This document shows, one piece after another, positions 9,152-31,390 of a stretch of 32,862 nt of DNA (within the stretch, counting starts at the first letter, position 1; each line of letters begins with the position of its first letter). The stretch is taken from contig NW_003129880.1 in the NCBI RefSeq assembly GCF_000003605.2, positions 25,609 through 58,470 on the forward strand, given 5' to 3'. The position numbers and the translations under genes were made by a program. This stretch comes from Saccoglossus kowalevskii. Taxonomy: Eukaryota > Hemichordata > Enteropneusta > Harrimaniidae. Under the pieces are notes generated by a model. The model was given only the letters and a program-made list of their open reading frames with translations, did not search any database and was not told where the DNA came from.

Positions 9152-9319
9152 TCAATTCGCCAGCATAACGCTCTCGATCCATGGTTCGACGGCATCTACT
9201 CTGCCGTATAGTCCAGGCAAAACCGGCACAGCACAAGAGTGTTCGTTTCTAACTCCGATAACTCCAGCTTGATACCACCGAGATCCATCATACCACACCA
9301 AAGGACCACCATCGTCATC
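9152..9319 (-). CDS. Gene A exon 9: C-terminal S1 exon, nucleophile Ser is Asp
   Basis: One hundred and sixty-eight nt including the TGA stop at 9154-9152. It opens Asp404-Asp405-Asp406-Gly-Gly-Pro where active enzymes have Gly-Asp-Ser-Gly-Gly-Pro, so both the oxyanion-hole Gly193 and the nucleophile Ser195 are replaced. Asp405 (Asp194) is kept. Trp412 replaces Cys201. Gly425-Val426-Arg427 replaces Ser214-Trp215-Gly216. Pro-Gly-Leu-Tyr and the C-terminal amphipathic helix are normal for the fold. Confidence 0.92.
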   Translation of the reverse strand, partial: DDDGGPLVWYDGSRWYQAGVIGVRNEHSCAVPVLPGLYGRVDAVEPWIESVMLAN

Positions 9320-12300
9320 CTGTGCACAGTGAAATTAGTGAAGCACAACTTTAATATTCACAAACTCACATACTGAATCTAACTTCAGTTATTATGCTTT
9401 AAGCATAATTATAATAATAATTGTATAATACACAACAGGATATGCTTACCACACACGCATCCCTTCCTTCGATAGCACCGGCGCACATCAGTGATTCAGT
9501 CACGTCACCGTTATACCTGCCCGGAGCATTACACCAGTTATCGTCATATATATTTACTGGTGCTTGCATTAGGACTACAGCGCCAACTTCATCAACTGCA
9601 TTTGTAGAGTAGAAAAACAAATAAGCAACTTGGTTCACACGCTTTGCATACATATCATTACACCCATATAGAAGTCGTTTTTTTTTAAATATACCATAGC
9701 CCTTAGTCCTTATCTATAAATTTCTTCCTCATCATGTCATATCAAATAATTGTTCTTATTTGCTCAACGAAACCCCGAATAAATTGCATTCCAATGTTGG
9801 GTACTCACGTTGACTATGTGGACTTTATGAAGTAATAATTTATATTTATTAATCATGTATCGTTGATTAATGAGAAATATAATATATATGACATGTGCTT
9901 ACTTGATGGAGAACTAGCAACTGTAGAGCCCCAACCAGTAACCCATGCCTCAGTGCCGTTAGGGTACTGTGTTCCCTCCGCGGGTAAACATATATCCTGT
10001 ACCCAGTCATTAACATAAAGTATTGCTCCTCTAAGTCTCAACAAGGCAAAGTTGTATTCATCCTTAAACATTTCGAACTCAGGGTGAACAAATATCTCTT
10101 CAATATCCCAGGTTTGCTCATATGGGTCCGGTTGTGTATATATATGGTTGGCTGTAATAACATCGAACATCTCAGGATGATCCTGGTCTCTGTAATAATA
10201 TATAAGTATTGTAAATTAGATGATTTTCCTAATATAAATGTTACCGATTCTTTCAACGTTTGATCGTCCAGCACATCATTGCTGATAAGCAGGCCTGATT
10301 GTGCAATAACCCTTGTACACATTGGCGGCCGAGATCTCGTTAAAAGTGAGATTAGCAACAAAACTAGTTTACCCTTGAATCGGTGTTTAATTGTTACCTG
10401 TCGCCCCTATTTGTCATGACTGTTTAGGTGACGTAAAGATTGGGAGAATATAGCATATAATAGCTATTTGGTATCAAAAACAAGCCTTTCGTCTTGTTAG
10501 GGCCAAATCAACATTTTGTGTATTTAATTGCTCTTATATTTTTTGTATTTACTGCATGCTATGCTATATATTATTTACTGTAAACTCAGATAAAACCGTG
10601 TGGCGAATAGCGCCACCCAGAGTTATTGGTGAAAGTTATTTAATAGTATCAAGGTCAGTTCTTATCTGAGATTAAAAACAGGTGGGTTGGCAGTGTGACT
10701 CAGCCAACTGTACGGTACGGATGTACGTCTTTGAGATCCATCAATATCTTGATATTGCAAACTGTTTCACTGGGAATTGATTGGCTAGGAAGGTCTACAA
10801 ACACGGTGAGTGTTTAATGATTCACATGTGCTCTTTTGGCGGTTTAATTTTAGTGCCATTATGGTGCAAATATATCGTACACTGTTTACTGTGCCATTAG
10901 ATTGATTTGAAGTGTAAATAACTTCACTATAGCCAGAACAANNNNNNNNNNNNNNNNNNNNNNNNNNNNNNNNNNNNNNNNNNNNNNNNNNNNNNNNNNN
11001 NNNNNNNNNNNNNNNNNNNNNNNNNNNNNNNNNNNNNNNNNNNNNNNNNNNNNNNNNNNNNNNNNNNNNNNNNNNNNNNNNNNNNNNNNNNNNNNNNNNN
11101 NNNNNNNNNNNNNNNNNNNNNNNNNNNNNNNNNNNNNNNNNNNNNNNNNNNNNNNNNNNNNNNNNNNNNNNNNNNNNNNNNNNNNNNNNNNNNNNNNNNN
11201 NNNNNNNNNNNNNNNNNNNNNNNNNNNNNNNNNNNNNNNNNNNNNNNNNNNNNNNNNNNNNNNNNNNNNNNNNNNNNNNNNNNNNNNNNNNNNNNNNNNN
11301 NNNNNNNNNNNNNNNNNNNNNNNNNNNNNNNNNNNNNNNNNNNNNNNNNNNNNNNNNNNNNNNNNNNNNNNNNNNNNNNNNNNNNNNNNNNNNNNNNNNN
11401 NNNNNNNNNNNNNNNNNNNNNNNNNNNNNNNNNNNNNNNNNNNNNNNNNNNNNNNNNNNNNNNNNNNNNNNNNNNNNNNNNNNNNNNNNNNNNNNNNNNN
11501 NNNNNNNNNNNNNNNNNNNNNNNNNNNNNNNNNNTCGAGAATGTACATGAAAGTTTGTTTAACTATCGGGATTATTTAAAATAAAATGATCAAAAACAAT
11601 TTTATGTCACTTTCTCATTACCCAAAAGGAAAAGACTCTTCAATCGTTTAATATTGACAGTAATATCACCAGTTGGAAACAATTTTGCTACGGTCATATG
11701 TTAATTAATATTAATTCAACATAGTTTACTATAAATTTGGATAAAATTAAACTTAGCAATTACCTAAATTACAGACGCCTTTCCTGTCTATAAGCCTAAT
11801 ATAGTACCATTTTATCTTTCATATCCAACCGTTTAAATGTGACACATACTTTTTAGAAAAAAGCAGACATATACTTACAAATTTACACAGTGTCCTGCTG
11901 TCAATATCCACCGGCTTTTAATAATTGACCCGCCACATATGTGTATCCTATTCCTTTGTATAGCCACCTAAATAATACAGAAACAAAATATACCTATGGG
12001 ATCGCAATATACGGTAATCACAAATGGTCGCCAAAATTTCATTGGGGAGAGAAGGCACGTGAATTGCATTTGTCCCCCCCCCCCCCTCCCATATTGTTCC
12101 ACTCTCTACTGATGACGCGTTCACTGTTCGACTGACCCATGCTACTGTGTGGTATTTTGAACGGTGGACACGATGGAGAATGGAGCACTATTTGAAGGAG
12201 AAAAAATAGTCGTCTCTCTGTCTCTATCCCAGCGAGATCACGTGGTCATTTGAAAATAAAGTCTACCATCGGATTCCCAGCTATACATTTCTAGCTGTAG

Positions 12301-15300
12301 TTGGTCAGTAGAAAACATTGGGTTTCGCATGGCTGCAAAATTAGAAACTTGCTTGTGTGATGAACAAATGTGTTTTGTTTTTTTGTGTTATTTGCGCTAA
12401 TAACTAAAGACGATGATCATTACTTTACTCAAAGAAGACAGTGATGTAAATGTCTTCCATTCGAGTGTTAATATTCACAAGCAGTTCCCCTTCGCTTTCT
12501 AACTCAACTGCAAGTGTTAGAGATACCTGTGTCTCTAGGACAAAAGAATTGGTTTCTGATATCGCAGTTACGGTTCAATTTGTAATGTCTTATCTTGGAA
12601 AACACAAGGTATGATTTACTGGTTATGCTCCTGTACGCTTTGTAGGCATTATAAAATATTGCCAATGTTTCAATCACTTAAATGGTAATGTTGTTTTGTT
12701 CTCGTTTAGTTTTGATAGTTTAGAATCAGTAAATACATACCTGCTATGAATCTCTCACGCCAACACCCTTCACTCCATTGACGTGTCAAGCTTAAAGGGC
12801 GGCAGTCGTCGCGCCGCGTTCTGTTCGATATGGGACTCATAGCGACGTATACAACGCGTGTAAAATACATTGTTTATTCACATTCGAACACGCGCTGCGC
12901 GACGACCATCACGCTTTAATATGGACAGACATGAGTTATGTAAAACCTCACCTGCCATGGCCAGCTACCGGGCTCAGCCTGGACGCCTCCAACAATATCG
13001 GCTCCAACTTCTCCTTCTGGTAGGGTCAATACGGGCTCGATATCTTGGATACCACAATTAGCTGTATTCGCTAGAAAGGTTTAGAAATAATACCGGTGAT
13101 GTTTGTTTGTTTGTTGGAAAAATTACTTTGTGACGTAATTGTGGTTTTGATAACATGAATTTGTTTATATATGTCCTTAGAACGTTCCACGTATTCCACT
13201 TTATACAGAATTCGAATGAAACCTCCCCACGTTTTTAGTCACATTCAGTGGCACCATGAGCAAAGCAAGAAATGTTGTAAAACATGTTTAAATAGCTGCA
13301 CGCCATTTTAACCGAATTTTAATTCAGCTAAAGTGCCAACAGTCTCTTTGTGAGAATATACTTTATTTTAAATTAATGACATCTTGAATTTGCGAAATTA
13401 CAGATTAGCTAAATTAGCTAAAAATAACATACTAGCTAAAAAGACATGTTTTACAGTATACACACTGGGAAATAACATTATAAGAGCGGTATATACTACA
13501 CATTTGCTTTCAGATAATCGAAAAATGGTAACAGACATTAGTAATTTTCATCTCGCTGGTCTTTATAAAAGAGTTATTTGCTGATTATCGTGGTTTGGTT
13601 TTAGTAACTAAACAACATGTTACAATATCCGTTTTTTTTATTCGCATTATGTTATTGAACTAAACTGAATTATCACTATTTATCGCACTATTTTTTCATA
13701 CATTGTTTATTTGCCGTTTGTTTTTTCTTTTGTGGTTTGGTTTTTTGGTCTGTAACTGAATGGGTTATGAATTTCAACATTCATTTGCTGTGATTGTGAG
13801 TTCAAATTTATGACTTGGTCAAAATTATGTGATAACAGCCTTTTAAGCGGAAACCGTCAAAATGCATTTTTGTCATGTCGACTTGATTTTTTTTTAATTA
13901 TCGGTTTTAAATTCGTTTCTGGTTGATATATTAAGACCATAGACTAGAAAGTTCAAAATGATAAACATATTATTTTATAATAGCGAATGTATTAACTTAG
14001 AAACTTCCAACAGCCGTTAAAAACAAGTACACATATTTGTTCACCATAGTGTATATATTTTACATATTTGAAAACAAAAATTGTTATAAGTTTGAGACAA
14101 GATTAATGTGTTGATTTAAGGAAGAAACTTACACACGGACTGTAGTTTACATATAAGAAGTATGATATATTGTTTGAAGTATTTTACTACTATTGACACT
14201 AGCCGAAGTAATTAGGGGCTTCTGCTGGAATGGCGTTGAGGTTGTTTATTCTGATTGTAGGGCTCGGTTATAAACAGGATATGACATATTACACTTTTTA
14301 TGGGAAATTCTAGTATCTTAATGGCGACTACCATTTACTGGGATATGTATAATAATAATAATAGGTTATGAATTAGGAGTGAAATTCACTTTTAAATGGA
14401 CATCAGAATAAATACTGTCAGCTTTGTGGATATTGGAATATATTTACCGGTACTAAATACAATAATGAAGCAATTACACGCAATGATTGAATGAACCGAC
14501 TACTTGTGATTCTTACACTATATAATAGTATATATTTTTACTTACATGGGCAGTTTAGCTCATCGTCTCCCATTGGACAGTCTTGGGCACCATCACAACG
14601 TTGGGCAAATGGGATACAGAAACCATTAACATCGTTTCCACAACGATATTCCACTTGTAGCTCACATTCGACTGTAATAGATGTGATGTTTTGAGTTGTT
14701 AGATGAAATATGGAACCCAAAAAAACATGGTGAAGGGTTTTTCTGTTGTAATACTTACTTGGTTGGTCACGTGTTTCCCAGTAGGCAGAAAATCCAGTGT
14801 ACTGGACACTTGAATCCGTGCTGAAAATTACGTACATTACATATCCTGTTCCTATGGTTGGGTTTGGTATAGAGTGACCACATATTTCACGCAGTATTGG
14901 GAATGAGTCGTCTCCTCCATCATAAACGACCACCATGTCATAGGAACATTGCAATGACCCCTCGAGGTCGAAATAGTTGAAAAACAGTTCTATAACCTGT
15001 AACAAATTATATAGTTTATTGTTATATTATATGCTAATTAGGAAATCAGCATTTGGGAAAACTATCATTTCTGACTAGGCCACATACTTTGGTTAACATG
15101 AAGGAAAAAATTATAGACTATTTTCACGGCGTGCGATTTCATTGCCAATATATAAGTCGTAAACTGCCTGTCTTTGCAATACATCGACATTGACTGAGAA
15201 CAGTAACTGCGCACCATGTCGTAACAACATTGAAGTAGTGTATTGTGATCCGCCGTGTCTTTATATTGACGGAAAAATCCGCACCATAAGATTAAGTATG

Positions 15301-18300
15301 CCTATATATGTAATCAATTCTGAAAGCGAAATCGAAACCATTTTGAGTAGTATAGCAACATGGTACTTACAAATATGAATATTGACTGTATTTGTCAAGA
15401 AGATGTAAAGATCAGTTTTATTCAGATGAAATGAACACTGAAGGTGAATGAGCGGTATCGATGAGAGCAATTCCGCTCACAAATCCTATTCCAAAATTTC
15501 GACCCAAAAAAGCCAAATAAATATTCGTTATATTTTCAACTACAAATAATTCCATGAAACGAATACATTACAATAAGCTCATTTCCTGATACATACATAC
15601 GAAATATGATATCTGGACGTAATATCCGTTGACTGAAAACAACCTTTAGGAAGCGCGATTTCGAACAAACTGTGGGTAATTAGCCATAAAGTAAACTCTG
15701 TATTATCGGACGCAAAAATGTTGTTTAATACTTGTTACTAGATGTTTATTTCCTATATAAATTTAGAAGCTTACTATGATTTTGCGCTGATGTGTTTATA
15801 CAGACTGTTAGTGTTAGTGTTGAGTCACACTTTCTAATTTTACCTTATGTTCAAGATTGTCACGTTAATATCACGTGGTCGTGAATAAGTATTGCCATGA
15901 ATATTGGTAACTAATTGTTCACTCTAACCAAATGACATATGTAAAAAGGAAAAGAACGTACCTGACCCTGGGCCTCAGATGTCTCTAATACCCAGTCACA
16001 CATCGCATTAGGATCGTACTTGACATTTGCTTCTGGATCAAAATTCATCGATGTGAACGACCCAGAGAATCCATATTGGAAATGATCATTTCCACAACCA
16101 GAATCTACAACAAACAAAAGCATTATTTTACATACAATAATATGTCAGTAACAACCAATAAAAATCAGTAAATGTAAAAGTGAAACAACTTACGTGAACA
16201 AAACTTTTAAGTGATTTTTTTTCATGATTATATATTTTTAGCCAACAGTATTATTTTCGACTTGTAGTAATCGGGGCAGACCTCTTTCAGACCTTTGTTC
16301 ATTTCGTAATTATATCTTCAATTTTGTGCAATTTCTGATTATTTTTAGGCCGATCTTCTGTGTAGCCTGTTGATGTGGTATCATTATCTTCAATTTCCTA
16401 TTTTTAGTGATTTTTTAAAATGTTTTGGTCGAAATCATAATTTTTGGGACCGTCACACAGATTGCTTTTATGTCACCCATAAAATTTTCCGGCAAAAATG
16501 CATTTTCAAGAATGCTAGATTGAACGCGTGAAGGTTCATTATTGGTTGAAGATAGTAATTTGTCCAAGAGGGGTAGATTGACTAATGTATCTGCAAATGG
16601 GATCAGAAAACATCTCAAATGCTGTAATTTTATGTCATATTGACTTTATATTTACTATGCAGGTACATGGGCTAATACTGTGTCTTGTAGATGTTGTGGT
16701 TTTGTTTTTTGATTATTTTTATGTATTTTTTGGTTGAAAACTAAACTTTTGAACTTTATATATGGCGGCTCGGTATCTGGGCTGGTTCTCTGCGTGACAG
16801 AAGCACCAAAAGAATGTACACAATTCAGTGATCACCCACATACGGCATTGAGTAACTATACATTGCATGCTAACAACAATTTTATAATTTTAGCTACATG
16901 TACATCTTGGCCTTGACACACTTGACCAAGTATAGTATATTATACTTCTAATTGGCTAATGTTGTAATTACCAATGAGCGTCAGGCCTACGGGCCAATAT
17001 TTCATGGATAAGAACATGTTTCTCGACTTGTGATGCCATAATATTACTGCCTTTATTATATGTGTGGTTGCTGTTTTAATGCTTTGTCGTTTTATTTTAA
17101 TATTCATGAAATTCATTCATTGAATATTGATCGATTGAGCCATTGAGTCTGTTGTTCAATATTGGTAATCAAATTCATTCCTTAAATTCCCTAATAATCT
17201 CAACAACGTTGAACATTTCCCATGAAATGCAGCTGCTAATAAAATAATAAACTGTAGACTTGAATTATGGAACAAATATTAATATAAACATTCCAGGAAG
17301 GAGGTGTGTCTTTCTGGTTGGCATATCAACAGAAAGTAGTAAGTCTGTCTGGTTGGTGGCATGTCAGCATATGAAATTGAGTCTGTCTGGTTGGCATATC
17401 AAGAGCAAGTAGTAAGTCTGTCTGGTTGGCATGTCAGCAGATGGAGGTGAGTCTATCTGTCTGGTTGGCATGTCAGCAGATGGAGGTGAGTCTATCTGTC
17501 TGGTTGGCATGTCAGCAGAAGGAGGTGAGTCTATCTGTCTGGTTGGCATGTCAGCAGAAGGAGGTGAGTCTAACTGTCTGGTTGGCATGTCAGCAGATGG
17601 AGGTGAGTCTATCTGTCTGGTTGGCATGTCAGCAGAAGGAGGTGAGTCTATCTGTCTGGTTGGCATATCAACAGAAAGAGGTGAGTCTGACTGGTCGGTA
17701 TGTCAGCGTAAGTAGCTGAATCTGTCTGAGTGGCATTTCAGCGGTACGTGTGATTGTATGAAAATCGTAGTTTGCACTATAAAAACAGAAATTGTGTTAC
17801 ATCAATAAATAGTTGAAGAGTGAATGGTTTGCATATAGTATATATTATTTTTTTTCAATGTTGATTTTATTTCCAAACGTATGTCTACGTATTAACTATC
17901 GCCATGTGACTTTGATACTAAACGAGGCACTAATATGACAACGTACGTATTCTGCCAAAATTCATCTATCCTCGGGGGCGGACATCCGGGCATTTTCACC
18001 GCCTGGCAACCCGCGGCGGTGAAAACAAAGGCCCAAAACTCGCAGAAAACGATACTTTGGGATGATTGTTGAGACTCCTCTGAACAGTGGAACAAGATTA
18101 GCCCTACGTGTGTAACATATATAAATTTGGTTGTTCGGAATTACTTCAAAGTTGAGTTTGTGTTGTTTTCTCAAATTTTCACCGGCTCGACCGGCGTTCC
18201 ACAGCAGCGCGCACAGAGCCCATAGAAATGCATGGTACAGTGGTGCGCGTCTTAGCAACGTGGAACGTCTTGTGACGTAGCTCCGCCCCCGAGGATACTT

Positions 18301-18518
18301 ATATATGTATATACTAATAATTGTTTATAGACCGCCGCCTTATTATTTGGTCGTCTGAAACAACACCCAATAATGAAACATTCAAACTGCCAATGTATAT
18401 GTAATTAGAATATCCAAGTACCGGGGATCCGAAAGCTAATACTTTTGATTAACTTACCTCGTTGCTGTGCCAACGAAAGAGCCCACAGGCTAACAAACAC
18501 TACCCACAAGCTGTGCAT
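9152..18518 (-). CDS. Gene A: secreted CUB-LDLa-serine protease homologue, predicted non-catalytic (complete, 9 exons)
   Basis: The spliced CDS joins 18518-18458, 16104-15962, 14996-14759, 14671-14546, 13070-12952, 11967-11879, 10189-9903, 9595-9450 and 9319-9152. This gives 1377 nt and 458 residues; all splice sites are GT-AG and all phases agree. Domain order: signal peptide (1 to about 18), CUB (24 to about 143), LDLa (150-188), linker with Cys195, S1 fold (215-458). His255 matches catalytic His57. Asn305 sits at the Asp102 position, Asp406 at Ser195 and Asp404 at Gly193. The activation site reads Asp214-Ile215 with no Arg or Lys. Asp400 matches Asp189 of a trypsin-type pocket. Catalysis is therefore not expected. 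The role is inferred to be extracellular binding or cofactor activity, with CUB and LDLa as protein-binding modules. The 593-N gap lies in intron 6 and does not break the model. The family assignment is secure; the biological role is unknown. Confidence 0.92.
9450..9595 (-). CDS. Gene A exon 8: S1 domain, specificity-pocket exon
   Basis: One hundred and forty-six nt, phase 1 in and phase 0 out, donor GTAAGC. It encodes residues 356-403. Cys376 and Cys392 match the Cys168-Cys182 pair. The motif Met-Cys-Ala-Gly is present. The exon ends Arg-Asp400-Ala-Cys402-Val. Asp400 is the Asp189 equivalent that gives trypsin its basic P1 preference, so the base of the pocket is kept although the catalytic residues are not. 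Confidence 0.9.
9903..10189 (-). CDS. Gene A exon 7: central S1 domain, catalytic Asp position is Asn
   Basis: Two hundred and eighty-seven nt, phase 2 in and phase 1 out, donor GTAAGC. It encodes residues 260-354. The strand that normally reads Asn-Asp-Ile-Ala-Leu-Leu reads Tyr-Asn305-Phe-Ala-Leu-Leu, so Asp102 is Asn. Cys326 matches Cys122. Trp-Val-Thr-Gly-Trp-Gly is intact, but the residue before it (Cys136 in trypsins) is Ala340. Asn336-Gly-Thr is an N-glycosylation sequon that gene B shares. Confidence 0.92.
10942..11534. other. Assembly gap (593 N)
   Basis: A run of N inside intron 6 of gene A, between the His exon and the Asp exon. Exon phases on each side agree (phase 2 to phase 2), so no coding exon needs to be hidden here. 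An optional cassette exon cannot be excluded. Confidence 0.98.
11879..11967 (-). CDS. Gene A exon 6: active-site histidine exon
   Basis: Eighty-nine nt, phase 0 in and phase 2 out, donor GTAAGT. It encodes residues 230-258, with Cys240-Gly-Gly-Ser and the motif Trp-Ile-Leu-Thr-Ala-Gly-His255-Cys256. The Cys42-Cys58 disulfide pair and His57 are kept. Ala56 is Gly here, whereas gene B has the usual Ala. The exon is too short to stand out as an ORF and was found from the family motif. The gene B counterpart is also 89 nt. Confidence 0.9.
12074..12086. repeat. Poly(C) run
   Basis: Thirteen consecutive C bases in intron 5 of gene A, about 110 bp from exon 6. The exact length may be uncertain in the assembly. 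Confidence 0.9.
12792..12919. mobile_element. Short TTAA-flanked relative of the MITE (128 bp), in gene A intron 5
   Basis: TTAAAGGGCGGCAGTCGTCG at the left matches the right-hand ends of the two 305-bp copies. The right end, read inward, matches the copy that begins at 32828 (both carry GTCGCGC-GCGCGTGTG-type sequence). The interior is different and shorter, so this is a deleted or separate subfamily member. It lies 33 bp from exon 5 of gene A. Confidence 0.6.
12952..13070 (-). CDS. Gene A exon 5: linker and N-terminus of the S1 domain
   Basis: One hundred and nineteen nt, phase 1 in and phase 0 out, donor GTGAGG. Cys195 corresponds to Cys1 of chymotrypsin, which tethers the propeptide to Cys122 (here Cys326). 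The new N-terminus would be Ile215-Val-Gly-Gly, followed by a Ser-Trp-Pro-Trp-Gln motif. The residue before it is Asp214, where Arg or Lys is usual, and no basic residue occurs between 191 and 214. Cleavage by a trypsin-like activator is therefore not expected here. Confidence 0.9.
14546..14671 (-). CDS. Gene A exon 4: LDL-receptor class A module
   Basis: One hundred and twenty-six nt, phase 1 to phase 1, so the module is a symmetric cassette. Six cysteines (150, 158, 166, 173, 179, 188) have LDLa spacing. Cys173-Asp-Gly is followed by Asp178-Cys179 and Asp183-Asp184-Glu185, the acidic calcium-binding cluster of the family. The donor is GTAAGT. Intron 3, between exons 3 and 4, is only 87 bp. 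Confidence 0.92.
14759..14996 (-). CDS. Gene A exon 3: second half of CUB domain
   Basis: Two hundred and thirty-eight nt, phase 0 in and phase 1 out, donor GTAAGT. It encodes residues 69-147. It carries the second CUB disulfide pair, Cys85 and Cys107. Tyr87-Asp88 and Asp129-Ser130 sit at the places where calcium-binding CUB domains have their ligands. The domain ends with Tyr-Thr-Gly-Phe-Ser-Ala-x-Trp (134-141), the usual last CUB strand. The matching gene B exon has exactly the same length. Confidence 0.92.
15962..16104 (-). CDS. Gene A exon 2: first half of CUB domain
   Basis: One hundred and forty-three nt, phase 1 in and phase 0 out, donor GTACGT. It encodes residues 21-68. It starts with the CUB opening (Ser-Gly-Cys24-Gly), continues with Gly-Ser-Phe-Thr-Ser-x-Asn-Phe-Asp-Pro (35-44), and ends with Asn-Ala-Met-Cys56-Asp-Trp, the second cysteine of the first CUB disulfide. 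No exon like this was found for gene B inside the window. Confidence 0.9.
17310..17745. repeat. Minisatellite with 39-bp unit, in gene A intron 1
   Basis: The phrase CTGGTTGGCATGTCAGCAG recurs at a strict 39-bp spacing from 17422 (17461, 17500 and onward) for about six near-identical units up to about 17690. Shorter, diverged units flank it on both sides (17310-17420 and 17690-17745). Because 39 is a multiple of three, open frames of 94-100 codons with a 13-residue repeat appear on both strands. They are by-products of the repeat and lie inside an intron. Confidence 0.9.
17967..18297. mobile_element. 331-bp inverted-repeat element with TA ends, in gene A intron 1
   Basis: The ends are a perfect 16-bp inverted repeat, TATCCTCGGGGGCGGA at 17967-17982 and its complement at 18282-18297. 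If TA is the duplicated target, the element would be a Tc1/mariner-type MITE. An internal hairpin, TTTTCACCGC (17993-18002) against GCGGTGAAAA (18016-18025), lies near the left end. The element is much more GC-rich than its surroundings. Short open frames across it look like chance. It lies 161 bp from the signal-peptide exon. Confidence 0.7.
18458..18518 (-). CDS. Gene A exon 1: start codon and signal peptide
   Basis: Sixty-one nt encode MHSLWVVFVSLWALSLAQQR plus the first base of the next codon. The hydrophobic stretch ending in Leu-Ala-Gln looks like a secretory signal peptide, with cleavage probably near Ala17-Gln18. The donor is GTAAG, phase 1. No other in-frame ATG lies close upstream, and a TATA box lies about 50 bp upstream, which supports this start. 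Confidence 0.87.
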
Positions 18519-24290: not shown

Positions 24291-24461
24291 TTAACCACCC
24301 ATCATAATACTTTGAACCCAAGTGAGCACGCTATCCACATTGCCATAGAGACCGGGCATACCCGATGTGCCACACTGTTCCCGCCGAGGACCCACGACAC
24401 CAACGAGAACCCATTTATCGTTTGGTGCGTTGTACCATACCATTGGGCCACCATTGTCCCC
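24291..24461 (-). CDS. Gene B exon '9': C-terminal S1 exon, nucleophile Ser is Asn
   Basis: One hundred and seventy-one nt including TAA at 24293-24291. It begins Gly336-Asp337-Asn338-Gly-Gly-Pro, which is a canonical active-site loop except that Ser195 is Asn. Trp344 replaces Cys201. Gly359-Pro360-Arg361 replaces Ser214-Trp215-Gly216. Cys365 pairs with Cys334 (Cys191-Cys220). Confidence 0.92.
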   Translation of the reverse strand, partial: GDNGGPMVWYNAPNDKWVLVGVVGPRREQCGTSGMPGLYGNVDSVLTWVQSIMMGG

Positions 24462-27400
24462 CTGGAAAAGAAACAACATCGTTATTACCACAAATTAATA
24501 CAACAACACTGTCAAACAATCATCGATCGAGAGACTTGCATAATAGTTGTACAGCTTTCATCATTAAATTTGTTTAATAAATACTATATAAACCAAAATC
24601 GTGAGAATACTTTTACTTCCCAGTACGTAGCTAAACTTGACATTTCAGATAATTACTGCAATTTTCATTTTCATAACGTATTCTCGCTCAGACCGAAATT
24701 TCACCCATAATTCTTGGGATACATATGCACGTCCATTTTGTTCACGATCCGATTCAAAACGGACGAATGATTCAAACTTGGTACACACATGTGAAAAATT
24801 ATATTATTTTAAATCGATCGAATTCAAAATAATTTCCATTTGGCTGCTTTATTTTAACGAATACTGTTTTGGAGCCATAGCTTAGACATGCTTAGACCGA
24901 TCATGTTCAGCTTCTTCGAACATGATACATTTAGTCACACATGAACATAAATTCGTTTTCGCATTAATGATGACAGCAGTTATAAATATTCGATGTCAGA
25001 ACTAACAGTTAACCAGTATACATACTTGACATGCGTCTATCGTTCCATCTACGGAGCCAGCGCACATTAAAGTCTCTGTAATAGCACCGTCGTGCATACT
25101 TGGCTGATTGCAGAAATCGTCATCATAAATAGTGACCTCCGTCTGCTGTAGTACTGTAGTCCCAATATCATCAACTGAAAGAAGTATCATTAAACGAGAA
25201 TAGCTTAACAATATTGAATTGAAACTCAACACAGCAAACTACCACATAACACCGAGAACACTATTTTCTCCTCATATTTTTTCTTCTAAGTCGAACAAAT
25301 TATAATGAAAGTAGAAACTAAGACTCTTCTTACTTTCAATACGCATGGCACCGACAGCATCTTCGCCCCAGCCTGTGACCCAAGCTTTGGTTCCATTTGG
25401 GTAATTTGCTCCTTTAGGGGCCAGGCAAATATCGTGAGCAGCGGGATTTGCTGTTATATTTATCGGGACTCTCATTTTTACCATAGCAAAGTTGTATTCA
25501 TCTTTAAACATATCAAAGGTTGGGTGTACAAATATCTCATCCACAGCATGGACTTCTTCATAGGGATCAACTTGCGAGTAGATATGGTTCCCAACGATAA
25601 TATCAAACAACTGGGGATTCAGTGCATCACTACAAAAACATATAAAAGAATTATCATGGCATTTATTGTCAGTGAAAATATTACAGGTGAAGTATAACAA
25701 AAAAGGAACATGAATTGGGTAAATATATTATTTACAATTTTTTTTACGCTAAATTGCATTACAATATTCAGGAATTCTGTGGATTTCGTTTAATAATTAA
25801 ATATGCAGGAATGTGTTTTGCTTCTCTGTATTTTACTTGTGATTGGTTGAAAAGTGTGTGGAGATTGTAGAAAATATGCAGTTGTCAAAAGAAAATAGGT
25901 AAGTTAATCACAACTGCCTAATGAATGAGTGCGTAATTTGGCGTAGTTGGCTCACTTGTGAGAGTTCGCTGGTTCCCGGCGTCCCTTGCGAATGGCAAGA
26001 AGAACGCAGGTACTAGTAATCGCCATATTGTTTCACTGGGCCGGGATTCGGGCCCAAAGTCACGTGACTGAGTAACGTAATTTGAAAACATTCCAAGACT
26101 AGCATATTTGAGATGTTTCTGGCATTTCTCGCTGTTTCTGTGCAAATTTATAACAAAAAAAACAGTTTTATATTCGCCCAACTCCCGAGAGTAAAAGGAA
26201 ACCCCTGCTCTCGGGCCACGAGCGTAAGCCCTGACGTCAGGTAACCAAGGGAAATAGAACAAGAAACGAAAAGTAACGAATCAATCAGAATACCGGAACC
26301 TTTACCAGTTATCGGCCTTTTGTGGCTTGGTACGCCATGACACTTGGCGGGAACCAGCCAATTGTGAGAGTTTACTATAGAACCAGAAAGAGGCACTGGC
26401 TTTTCCTCGCTGTGAACACATCATGAACAAAATGTCGCGTATTACTACAATTGTGCTCCAATTCGTTTAAAAGTGTCTAATTTCATTGCAACAAAACCTT
26501 TTAAAACTTGTTTAACACCTTAAAAATAAAAATATCAATCTTTTTCTTATTCAAAACATCATGCTATTTTTGCCATGTAAAACATCGACACCGAAGCTCT
26601 GTATTCCCGTACATCCCCAATTCACTGATATTGGTGGAAACGACGTAGAATAAATCTACTGTTACCATAATTGTTACATAGAGAGTGAGTGTAGGAGACA
26701 GTAATAAATAAATAACGACCGAGACCATTTGTAGATGTGTCACCACTGAACACGGTTACACTCATTTCAGAAACGATAAAAAGTAGTTTGAAAATACGAA
26801 TAGCAGAAAATACACATGTTAAATACAAACAATAGTTGCAGACTTTTGTTGAACGAAAAATTATAGTCATGTTTACTAATTTCGATTGTTGTCTTTAAAT
26901 GGGACCTCATTGTCTGCCTCACTCACAGACCATCAGTTTACGTGGTGTTGTAGAATACATTTTCTATGTTGTTGTGTTCCCTACCTCCCAATCATGATAA
27001 TAAAATCCCTCACCATGTGTAAAGTGCATGTTGACTTTTATACGTGATGTATGAGTGTTAATGTTTGCTGTGGAACAGCTGCGAGAGGGTCGTCACCTAT
27101 GCACGCGCGGGAATTGAGTTCCAACGCGAATGCTCGTGGGTAGACGCTTGTTTGTAAACAATGACACGTTATGGCCATCTGCGGCATGCGCAGGTGACGA
27201 ATCCCCCGCTTTATACAAAATAATACTCACGATTGAACGCAATGAGCAGCTGTCAAAATCCAAAAAGGGTCTAGAAGAATCCCACCACATTGATGAGTGA
27301 ACATCCGCTGAATGGCTACCTGTAATTACAAAATAAATGAAGCACAATGTCTGAACAAGTTTGGTTATTGGTCGCCTGTAAATATCATATGAATATATTA

Positions 27401-30400
27401 ATGTGGCTAGTCTAGTTTTATAGGCATCGGTTTCAATAAATTTCAAATACCCCGGTGAAAAAGTACATACTTACAAACGGACACGAAAATTAGCTATATA
27501 TGCCTTGAAGCGCTTTTGATTCGTAAAACATGGCCTATGTTGGTTCAGGTCATGCCATGAAACGTAACATTCTGACATTCTTGCATTGTTTCTTGCGTTT
27601 TCAAGGTATTTTAGCAGCAGATCATACTTTACCATGGGAATTGAAACTATATATCTAGTCGTAGCATATCATCGGTGTCGTCATAACTATGTATGTTATA
27701 CGCTATGATAGTAAAACTGCACCAATGACCACAAAAAATACCCACCTGCCACGGCCAACTATACGGCTCTGCCTCGGTACCTCCAGTTACCTGCGCACTA
27801 ACCGGATTCAACACAGGGTCAATGGCAGGTTGCCCACAAGTTGCAGAATTTACTGAAAACAACAGTGAATACGCTCAATTATGTTGCAAGTAAAATTTAA
27901 ACGAATAGATAATTTTCCGTTCACTACGAGATCTCGCACAAAGAGTGAAAAGATAGAACAATAAATTAACGAGTAGGTGGTTTAATCTCTCAATCGTTAG
28001 GTTATACTTGTATGGTGCTGGTAAGGTGATGATTTACGCCAGTTCTATCGCTGCATTGACACGCAGATCGCCGCAAACCAACCGAATGTGCTGAATAGCG
28101 CCACCTGTGTTGACACAATGCTATCGCTGTATATAATAAGCCATTTTTCGCAGGCTGCGAGATCACGCAGTCATGTGATACAGGTCAAGCTTCCAGTTTA
28201 ATATGGTAGCAACCACATTGTCCTACGCGTTGTAAACCTCATCTCGAAACAATATCTGTCCCAATGGGAGTCAAACGGTACGCTTACGGCGAATGTAAGA
28301 GTGATTCTCGCTTTCAATACAAACATTATATGAATGCTGTTTTTTTTGTTTTTTTTGTTTGTTTTTTTGCGATTCCCTAAACTAAAAACGCAGTCTGAAA
28401 AGTGCGATTGATGGTTCAGTGCCTGTTCTCGGGCAGACAGTTTTGGTCGACACAGAAAAATCCAGGACATGTACATGTACACTTGTTTCCTGCACTTTGC
28501 GGGAGCAAAGGGTCCTTCGGAGTCGTATCCAGACCCAACAACAGCGATTGCGAGAGGTGTCGAACGCCGTATATTCAAGTCGAAGACATCGCCGAGTGGC
28601 AATCAAAAGAAGCGCCGGAAAACATTGAAACCTGTTGATACGGTTTAACTTTCTTTTGCAAGTTGTACTGATCGGAACTTTACCGTGCCGTGCCGTGCCA
28701 TTAATATTTATTTTTCAAAATTTTATGATCGTGTATTTTATTGCGATCCCGAAATTGCTTTACAATTTTTATTAACTCATAACAACCTACTGAAGGAGGT
28801 TAAAGGTTACAACAACAACAAAAATTACAGAAAAATATTAATCAAATTACAATGGCTAATAGTTTAAAGACAACCAAAAACAGACTAAATTGAAGTTAGT
28901 AACGGAAATATATAATAAAGTAAAATGAAACACCAACAACAAACTATAAACTGAATATAAAAACAAAAACCCAATGAATAGGTTTTTAAAAAAAAAGTTA
29001 ATGACTAAGTAGGTGCTGCTGTCTAATAGCAAACCTGTATTTCAGATATTGTGCCAGAGGAATTGCTAAGTTATTATTTGACATTATTTTTATGAATTTA
29101 TTTTCAGGTGTGAGATTAGTATGCTTTACCATGGGATTGACCATTTTATTGTTATTTACAACTCACAAGTGTACATCTTAAATTGTCTTATCATTAGTAT
29201 CCCGATGAAAACTAGATTCCTGACAACACTGTTACCTCAGAATTTGAAAAGGATTTCAATGCGAATATCTATGCATTTAATGATAACAATACTAGTATTG
29301 CCACAGTTAGGGAATACCTCTCCTGACAAAGCGCTAAGCCTGAATGTGAACTAATTATATTACTAAGCGCAGAATTAAATTGTAATACTAGTATTTAATA
29401 CTTGTACAATTTAATACTCATACTATCGGGTTTTAATAATAGTTTTATTCAACTTCCCTTCTATGTCGAAAAGTTGTGAATTTTTAAGCTATGTATTTTT
29501 AAAGCATGCTTGTTGTTTACAATATTGACAGTTTCCTGTTATTTGTATTGATGCTTGTGTGTATCATGCCGTGTCGACAGATTGTTGTTATCCATATAAA
29601 CTAATGTGTGAATCGTGCAATGTTGGCCGTTTTCCGATATGTTAGGAACTTCAAAAGCTGTTCACGCTAGTAATGGTGAAAGTAGCAGTAATGTGAAATA
29701 TGTGCCTTTGACATGTGATGCTAGTACACATACAAATGTTACATTTGAACATGCCCGTCGCCAAACAACTTGAAATCTTCGCACGATTTGTAGGCCCTGA
29801 GCTTCTCCCGGTCATAGTCGAACCGATAACGCATTAAACATCGGAAAAACCGAATTCTGGAACATTCCTGAAATCACTAGAGTAGCCTGGTAATTTCAAA
29901 GGATCGATGAAATTGCAACCAAGTTTGTTAAGTCTTGAAGCGACGAATTGTTTTAGGATCATGTCGTAAAAAATCAGGGTCTTCCTCGAGCTACAAATCG
30001 TGCACAGCTTTAGTGATTGCAAGAAGTCTTTGAGCTGTGGCACGGTCATTCTGTCGAAGACAGCCATGGTCGAAAACGTGAAACAAATGCAATAAATCAC
30101 TCGAAAATGTAATGCACGACACTAGGTACACAAACGATTTAGCGCTATTTTGATTCAAAGCTTGACCTGTATCACATGACTAGCAACCGGTTGCTAGGCA
30201 AATTTAACGGTCTCGCAAGATCTCGTCCAAAGCGAAAAATAGCCTATTGGTCAACTTCTTTTAAAGCTGTTTGTACCGAAATCCCGCGAGATATTGCAAG
30301 TAGGTAACTTTTTGCTGTCAAAAACTTTTACCAAATGACATTGAAATTTGCAAAATGTTACATTGAAACTTTAGCGGGTAAAATTCAGGCATTCAAAGAG

Positions 30401-31390
30401 TTAAAATAAAGACAGATGACGCCAAAGGCGTGTTGTATGTTCAATATGATGGATACAATATGGCACGTCTAATAGTGTCAACAATTAATCCAACAAAGAC
30501 TCACTTGGGCAACTCAGCTCGTCCTGTCCATTGGGGCAGTCATCGACTTGATTGCATCGGTTTTCAAATGGGATACAATATCCATTCTCATCATCACCAC
30601 ATCGGTAGCCTACTCCAACTTCACATTCGACTGAAAAAGACACGACTTTATCAAATCATAGTCACCAATACAACGGTGAACCGCTCATGGCGACGGGACA
30701 ATTTTCAAATATAAACAAACTGTGGCCGTGCATTCAATACACAAACACATAATATACTTGTTCACACAGAAGTGTTTTAGTTATCGTGTAAAGATCAGTG
30801 TGACCTTTAAACGGCAGTCGTCGCGCTGCGCATGTGCGACATTTGTGTTGATAAACATTGATTTTCCCACAATCAAATACGCTCTTCTACTATGGAAATC
30901 ACAAGTATGAGGTTTTACCTGGGTGCGACTTTCACTAATTACCACCGGTGACTCCTTCGATACCTTGCAACCACCTAAAAATACCCAATTAAAGCTTCGT
31001 AACGTCTCAATTTGTACTCGTTGATCTGCACATCAGTCAAAGTCGCCATCTTTGTTTATATGAGACCCATATATCTCGCGCATACGTGGCGCAACGACTA
31101 CCGCCCTTTAAATGATGACTGGTCATCAATTAAAGCGTCTAAATTATCTCACCTGGTTGATTTCTTGTTCTCCAGGTAGCACTGAATCCAGTATAGGCGA
31201 CGCTGGAATCTGTAGTGAACAGGACGTACATGATATGTCCTGTGCCGACGGTTGGATTTGGGAGATTGTGGCCGCACATAGTCCTGAGAACGGGTGCTGT
31301 GGTATCAAGTCCGTCGTATGCAATCACTGAGTCATACATACAATTAACAGAGCCCTCTACGTGGAAGTAGTCGAAATCCAATTCAATAAC
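24291..31390 (-). CDS. Gene B: CUB-LDLa-serine protease homologue, predicted non-catalytic (5' end outside window)
   Basis: Seven exons, 31390-31153, 30630-30505, 27852-27746, 27319-27231, 25629-25334, 25174-25026 and 24461-24291, join to 1176 nt: 391 residues and a TAA stop with consistent phases. Numbering from the first residue present: second half of CUB 1-79, LDLa 82-120, linker with Cys127, S1 fold 143-391. His183 matches catalytic His57. Asn233 sits at Asp102 and Asn338 at Ser195. Gly336 (Gly193), Asp337 (Asp194) and Asp332 (Asp189) are kept. The activation site is Gln142-Val143 with no basic residue. It is a tandem paralogue of gene A: three exons have identical lengths and every shared phase matches. 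Signal-peptide and first-CUB exons should lie to the right of 32862. A non-catalytic extracellular role is inferred. Confidence 0.9.
25026..25174 (-). CDS. Gene B exon '8': S1 domain, specificity-pocket exon
   Basis: One hundred and forty-nine nt, phase 1 in and phase 0 out, donor GTATGT. Cys307 and Cys323 form the Cys168-Cys182 pair. It ends Asp332-Ala-Cys334-Gln, so Asp189, Cys191 and Gln192 are all typical of trypsins. It is one codon longer than in gene A, just before Asp332. Confidence 0.9.
25334..25629 (-). CDS. Gene B exon '7': central S1 domain, catalytic Asp position is Asn
   Basis: Two hundred and ninety-six nt, phase 2 in and phase 1 out, donor GTAAGA. Lys-Asp-Glu-Tyr-Asn233-Phe-Ala carries Asn at the Asp102 position in the same local context as gene A. 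Cys255 matches Cys122. Ala269 replaces Cys136. Two N-glycosylation sequons are visible: Asn244-Ile-Thr, and Asn265-Gly-Thr, which is shared with gene A. Confidence 0.92.
25938..26380. repeat. Possible dispersed repeat in the gene B intron before exon '7'
   Basis: A GC-richer block of about 440 bp. GCTGGTTCCCGGCG near its left end (from about 25968) and the complement GGCGGGAACCAGCC near its right end (from about 26347) form an imperfect inverted pair. TGTGAGAGTT occurs at both ends in direct orientation. Composition differs sharply from the surrounding intron. No coding function is recognised. The boundaries and the element type are uncertain. Confidence 0.35.
27231..27319 (-). CDS. Gene B exon '6': active-site histidine exon
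   Basis: Eighty-nine nt, phase 0 in and phase 2 out, donor GTGAGT, acceptor TTACAG. It encodes Cys168-Gly-Gly and Trp-Ile-Leu-Thr-Ala-Ala-His183-Cys184, a fully canonical His57 motif. It starts Val-Ala-Ile-Gln-Arg, as in gene A. Confidence 0.9.
27746..27852 (-). CDS. Gene B exon '5': linker and N-terminus of the S1 domain
   Basis: One hundred and seven nt, phase 1 in and phase 0 out, donor GTGGGT. Cys127 is the Cys1 equivalent. The domain start reads Ala-Gln142-Val143-Thr-Gly-Gly, then Ser-Trp-Pro-Trp-Gln. There is no Arg or Lys anywhere in this exon. It is twelve nt shorter than in gene A, all in the linker. Confidence 0.9.
28135..30248. mobile_element. Candidate ~2.1-kb DNA transposon remnant in gene B intron
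   Basis: A perfect 24-bp inverted repeat is present at 28169-28192 and 30158-30181. Similarity resumes outward: AATAAGCCATTTTTCGC at 28135-28151 matches the complement of 30232-30248 at 15 of 17 positions. The right arm carries extra bases between the two blocks. Inside are a SAP-like ORF at the right end and coding-like but broken sequence at 28380-28640. The element fills most of the 2.65-kb intron between the LDLa exon and the linker exon. The superfamily is not recognised, and the outer limits are approximate. Confidence 0.55.
29834..30067 (-). pseudogene. SAP-domain-like ORF remnant inside the transposon candidate
   Basis: A minus-strand ORF of 77 codons counted from the internal Met that fits best (Met-Ala-Val-Phe-Asp-Arg). 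Its N-terminal part reads Met-Thr-Val-Pro-Gln-Leu-Lys-Asp-Phe-Leu, then Leu-Cys-Thr and Ser-Arg-Lys-Thr-Leu-Ile. This follows the helix-turn-helix pattern of a SAP DNA-binding motif. It ends at a stop after a short acidic tail, with no larger protein visible, so it is probably a decayed or split transposon protein. The assignment is by pattern only. Confidence 0.4.
30505..30630 (-). CDS. Gene B exon '4': LDL-receptor class A module
   Basis: One hundred and twenty-six nt, phase 1 to phase 1, the same length as in gene A. Six cysteines (82, 90, 98, 105, 111, 120). The usual Cys-Asp-Gly after the fourth cysteine is Cys105-Asn-Gln, but Asp109-Asp110-Cys111 and Asp116-Glu117 are kept. Calcium binding may be altered compared with gene A. 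Confidence 0.9.
30807..31111. mobile_element. TTAA-flanked MITE, copy 2 (305 bp), in gene B intron
   Basis: It is closely similar to the element at 23698 along its whole length. Shared internal landmarks are the run beginning TTGTGTTGATAAACATTGAT, the ACCACCGGT segment, and the AAAGTCGCCATCTTTGTTTA segment near the right end. TTAA is present at both ends. It sits in the 522-bp intron between the CUB and LDLa exons of gene B and makes up over half of it. Confidence 0.75.
31153..31390 (-). CDS. Gene B exon '3': second half of CUB domain
   Basis: Two hundred and thirty-eight nt, phase 0 in and phase 1 out, donor GTGAGA, acceptor TTTTAG. Cys17-Met-Tyr-Asp20, Met-Cys39-Gly-His and Thr-Asp61-Ser62 line up with gene A, as does the Tyr-Thr-Gly-Phe-Ser-Ala-x-Trp ending. 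It starts at a normal 3' splice site in phase 0, so an upstream exon encoding the first half of the CUB domain must exist. Confidence 0.9.

Follow-up and report, generated by a model that had tools for sequence, protein, structure and literature searches.

Several roles of inactive S1 domains are described in the available portions of three sources (PMC13194640, PMC5008636, PMC5718610): protein Z serves as a cofactor, HGF as a receptor ligand and haptoglobin as a scaffold, and others act as decoys. In HGF and MSP the inactive S1 fold provides the surface that binds the receptor, and both become active upon proteolytic cleavage (PMC13194640, in part); for protein Z, the residues named in an excerpt of PMC3320014 are Thr and Ala. 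The partial account of Tenebrio molitor (PMC11172050) lists 125 inactive S1 homologues, of which 24 keep Ser195. In the others it is replaced by Gly (26), Thr (21), Asn (11), Leu (10), Val (9) or Ile (7), with Ala, Met, Asp, Glu, Lys, Arg, Tyr and Phe found one to four times each. Asp102 is changed in 13 of the 125, some have unconventional activation sites and 102 are without extra domains. In the moth Ostrinia, 21 of its 177 S1 genes were reported to have a non-standard P1 residue (PMC10036332, in part). Schistosoma mansoni SmSP1 and matriptase-like proteins have one CUB, one LDLa and one S1 domain, and in the portion of PMC3967958 available SmSP1 is presented as a protease whose activation site carries Arg or Lys.

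The window analysed here is a stretch of 32,862 nucleotides (C2182:25609-58470) of the Saccoglossus kowalevskii genome, and the searches covered an assembly of 4830 contigs with a total of 572 million bases. Gene A, on the minus strand, consists of eight exons, with AG before each and GT after each internal one. The reading frame had been taken as intact, and the eight exons indeed join in one open frame of 437 residues with a stop at the end. In hmmscan the spliced frame, as predicted from genomic DNA, matched PF00089 over profile positions 1-220 of 220 (E 6.3e-46), CUB (E 1.4e-19) and LDLa (E 4e-6), in the order CUB, LDLa, S1 along the chain. Because the 437-residue predicted protein covers the whole of PF00089 and has CUB and LDLa domains as well, the PF00089 match is not due to chance. 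The first part of CUB is encoded at 15962-16104, recognised in the spliced frame (the exon by itself had no Pfam match); its second part is encoded at 14759-14996 and the LDLa domain at 14546-14671.

The number of domains and their order are those of SmSP1 and the matriptase-like proteins, from which gene A differs, as far as the accessible text on SmSP1 goes, in lacking both a full triad and a basic P1 (PMC3967958). The best PDB matches were TMPRSS11D and other type II transmembrane serine proteases, and the S1 domain aligned to TMPRSS11D over 238 query residues (E 1.4e-45). No transmembrane segment like that of these proteases was found for gene A; in the scan for an N-terminal exon the one candidate was a possible signal-peptide exon (MHSLWVVFVSLWALSLAQQR, 18458-18518, minus strand). 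This exon is kept as tentative because at least one hit of this kind also arose in 16 of 100 simulated sequences. A 39-base tandem repeat of about ten copies lies at 17309-17743, upstream of the CUB exons, and a run of N at 10942-11534, in the intron between the exons for His57 and position 102, could hide an exon. Pfam was also searched with ten other open frames from the window, and none matched at an E-value of 0.01 or below.

The active-site loop of gene A is divided between its last two exons. The penultimate exon (9450-9595, acceptor atgcag), which encodes the 168-182 cysteines and Asp189-Ala-Cys191, closes with GAT GCG TGT GTG|gtaagc at 9450, and the junction is of phase 0. The last exon (9319-9152 on the minus strand) opens directly after the acceptor gcacag with GAT GAC GAT GGT GGT CCT, runs from the loop to the stop and ends in TGA. 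The sequence thus reads Cys-Val | Asp-Asp-Asp-Gly-Gly-Pro, and in the phmmer alignment with TMPRSS11D (PDB 8vis_B) C-V-D-D-D-G-G-P stands on C-Q-G-D-S-G-G-P. Asp thus stands at 193 in place of Gly and at 195 in place of Ser, with Asp194 unchanged; the codons GAT GAC GAT at 9311-9319 take the place of Gly193-Asp194-Ser195 in active enzymes. Both the codons and the alignment bear out the initial annotation in reading Ser195 and Gly193 as Asp; the buried negative charge that it placed at the acyl-enzyme site is an inference. The span 9314-9319, to which it assigned the change, holds the codons of 193 and 194 only, and codon 195 is at 9313-9311.

A splice alternative restoring Gly-Asp-Ser-Gly-Gly-Pro was also looked for. 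No exact GDSGGP-coding stretch is present in the window on either strand, and with one mismatch allowed the sole match was GDNGGP of gene B, the neighbouring paralogue. The shorter DSGGP pattern gave, besides gene B, a single one-mismatch match at 28511-28524, no more than the chance level of 0.52 would give. The window therefore has no alternative exon that would restore the motif. In the whole-genome S1 search the rest of the contig beyond the window gave no match at E up to 1.

Further residues needed for catalysis or activation are replaced in gene A. Residues of genes A and B outside the displayed alignments are numbered by the chymotrypsin convention of the family. The exon at 9903-10189 (acceptor ttacag, donor gtaagc) encodes DEYNFALLRL, aligned to HENDIALVRL of TMPRSS11D, so that position 102 is Asn; chain 8vis_B of TMPRSS11D has Asp102 and GDSGGP, neither of which is found in gene A. 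His57 (LTAGHC) and His40 are encoded at 11879-11967 (acceptor atttag, donor gtaagt). With His57 kept, Asn at 102 and Asp at 195, two of the three triad residues are replaced. Gene A lacks the triad of active S1A enzymes and belongs to the serine protease homologues, that is, proteins with an S1 domain in which at least one triad residue is replaced. The activation site, in the exon at 12952-13070 (acceptor ttctag, donor gtgagg), is Ala-Asp|Ile-Val-Gly-Gly. Since P1 is Asp where Arg or Lys is expected, there is no basic residue for a trypsin-like activator to cut after. The Ser214-Trp215-Gly216 strand of most relatives is Gly-Val-Arg-Asn in gene A and Gly-Pro-Arg in gene B; Ser214 and Trp215 are clearly lost in both, and the alignment leaves residue 216 ambiguous. 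Cys136 is replaced by Ala and Cys201 by Trp in both genes. Gene A retains Asp189 (GRDAC) and Asp194 and the 42-58, 168-182 and 191-220 cysteines. Given several independent losses in the sequence and the established enzymology of S1 proteases, the S1 domain is predicted to keep a trypsin-like sequence framework without the ability to cut. Two catalytic elements had been counted as gone; these are 193 and 195, and to them must be added Asn102, the activation P1 and Trp215.

Gene B runs on the minus strand from 31390 to 24291. Its seven exons correspond to exons of gene A and agree with them in phase, and its frame is open. Its second CUB part is at 31153-31390, where the contig stops at the end of the window; the first half of CUB was not found up to the contig end, the best chance match having E 0.16. 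The LDLa exon is at 30505-30630 and the exon with the activation site Ala-Gln|Val-Thr-Gly-Gly, in which the non-basic P1 is Gln, at 27746-27852. His57 (LTAAHC) is encoded at 27231-27319, Asn102 (DEYNFAMV) at 25334-25629, the 168-182 cysteines and Asp189 at 25026-25174, and Asn195 (GDNGGP) in the last exon at 24291-24461. Asn102, the loss of Trp215 and a non-basic activation P1 are common to A and B, and the Asn102 codon is AAC in both. It is extremely unlikely that codon 195 (or 193) of gene A is an assembly or sequencing error. The codons rest on one assembly, but an error would require two separate wrong bases in a clean frame, and inactivity would not depend on codons 193 and 195, since Asn102 is common to gene B.

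A census of S1 exons in this genome placed the replacement at 195 in context. The large-family counts from the genome search are lower bounds, and the input was the 110 exon matches listed (106 and four from a second search), of which 99 were read; none of the 11 left unread spans position 195. Among the matches listed, residue 195 was read in all 33 exons that span it: Ser in 26, Gly in three, Asn in two, Val in one and Asp in one, the last being gene A only. Outside this genome, Asp is also on the Tenebrio list at one to four occurrences, as far as that source was available, so Asp195 is uncommon, as had been supposed, but already known (PMC11172050). Gly had been thought to be carried by most homologues; in the same partial list it is the commonest replacement (26 of 101) but not the majority (PMC11172050). 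Residue 102 was Asp in 30 of the 33 exon matches read and Asn in three, namely gene A, gene B and one gene on contig C176. Gene A shares with the Tenebrio homologues an S1 domain recognised by sequence, replaced triad residues and an Asp195 that is on the beetle list, but, going by the portion available, it differs from them in combining Asn102, Asp195 and a kept His57 in a CUB-LDLa protein (PMC11172050). Gene A is an ordinary kind of protein with an unusual residue set, and the inactive S1 proteins gain a CUB-LDLa member with the set His/Asn/Asp.

After A and B themselves, the best match by E-value was a single-exon S1 gene on contig C3976, 28% and 30% identical to them, and no close active paralogue of the pair could be named among the best candidates scored. 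A tree built from 21 S1 rows paired A and B with support 100/99 on a long shared branch. The other rows were rough exon joins and only 4 of 18 inner branches were well supported; the tree program warned of long branches meeting at the A/B node, and the tree accordingly informs on the pairing and not on the placement of the pair. Ser195 was replaced in five more S1 exons (L062, L076, L078, L079 and L039, on contigs C1270, C4527, C176 and C2174), which read GDGGGP twice, GDVGSS, GDGDGP and GDNGGP; on some of these contigs SAQC or AARC stands at His57. These exons probably represent a second set of inactive homologues.

Comparison of A and B also bears on the order of the losses. Because Asn102, the lost Trp215 and the non-basic P1 are common to both genes and residue 195 differs, catalysis was most simply lost before the duplication, and Asp193 and Asp195 would have arisen later in gene A only. 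By this comparison, Ser195 was probably changed to Asp late, in a gene that had lost its activity before, and was not the inactivating event. However striking, a residue at 195 can thus be acquired late by a dead enzyme and need not be the cause of its death. AAT and GAT differ by one base, and an ancestor with Asn195 would therefore offer a simple path to Asp195 of gene A, though the residues at 195 of A and B may instead be independent changes from Ser.

The alignment of A and B spans 385 codons, with 56% protein identity, pN 0.29, pS 0.77 and an undefined Jukes-Cantor dS; 63 of the 90 fourfold sites common to the two genes differ. The CUB/LDLa part gave dS 2.10, dN 0.30 and a ratio of 0.14, and in the S1 part silent sites were saturated, hence no dN/dS ratio; all these figures average over both lineages and are not specific to position 195. 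As 56% identity has persisted despite near-saturated silent sites and both frames are open, both predicted proteins were kept long after duplication. It is quite improbable that gene A is a decaying pseudogene whose residue changes reflect drift. Several of its catalytic positions are lost and its Asp195 is unique in the census, among the matches listed, as decay might produce; yet the splice borders of all eight exons are intact, and the exons join in one open frame. Neutral simulation of this frame at 0.2 changes per site introduced a mean of 8.4 stops and left none of 400 runs stop-free. At 0.1 changes per site there were 4.8 stops and 4 of 400 runs stayed stop-free, and a very recent death of gene A may fit these. 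On the evidence of the simulations, decay was rejected as the main reading. The initial description of gene A as a maintained pseudoenzyme is supported by Asn102, the P1 Asp, the lost Trp215, paralogue B and the near-saturated silent sites, that is, on a broader footing than the loop.

We consider it fairly probable that gene A encodes a non-cutting CUB-LDLa-S1 pseudoprotease with a binding role as cofactor, decoy or scaffold. The protein would be secreted and extracellular, and would remain single-chain, zymogen-like and uncleaved. Its S1 domain may dock a protease, a zymogen or an inhibitor, the CUB and LDLa domains could provide localisation, and the whole could act as a cofactor, decoy or scaffold within a local protease cascade. 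Human protein Z, which may itself have Asp at 195, has Gla and EGF modules before its S1 domain, where gene A has CUB and LDLa instead. The two are alike in having an inactive S1 domain, which in protein Z acts as a cofactor according to the accessible part of PMC13194640.

Binding is a common function of CUB and LDLa domains, and a receptor-ligand or adhesion role like that of the HGF beta chain would suit gene A equally well in kind, in place of the regulation of a cascade. HGF and MSP are precedents for an inactive S1 domain that binds a receptor, but they need cleavage according to the part of PMC13194640 available, and A and B have no basic activation residue; we therefore hold the ligand role to be rather unlikely, though the most plausible of the alternatives to the cofactor, decoy or scaffold role. 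Retention of an altered chemistry, by His57 with Asp195 or by a cation held by Asp193-195 and Asp189, is very unlikely indeed. In its favour, gene A still has His57 and Asp189, and there is a cluster of four acidic residues where the S1 and oxyanion site used to be. Against it, Asn102, a P1 that is not basic and the loss of Trp215 speak against a formed substrate cleft, and Asp195 was absent from the other genes in the 33 active-site exons read, among the matches listed.

Asn195-Gly196 of gene B is encoded at 24445-24461, and gene A directly encodes Asp at the corresponding position. Asn-Gly is prone to spontaneous deamidation to Asp. It is conceivable, though very doubtful, that Asp193-194-195 and Asp189 form a charged docking or cation site on the uncleaved domain, A then being the constitutive version of a binding switch and B a version that depends on time or pH. 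If so, gene A would hard-code a charge that gene B could gain through deamidation of Asn195-Gly196. The pair suggests an order in which the losses at the activation site, 102 and Trp215 are common to both genes and the changes to Asp195 and Asp193 are not.

A search of this assembly for the GFP family gave no match, and its controls gave none either. A mitochondrial contig of 17,037 bases (C4830, L009) was also seen in this assembly. On it TGA encodes Trp, and AGR codons interrupt genes when the vertebrate code is applied. COX1 lies on the strand opposite ND1 and COX2, with tRNA genes for Leu, Lys, Val, Ile, Cys, Gln, Ala, Asn and Tyr nearby.
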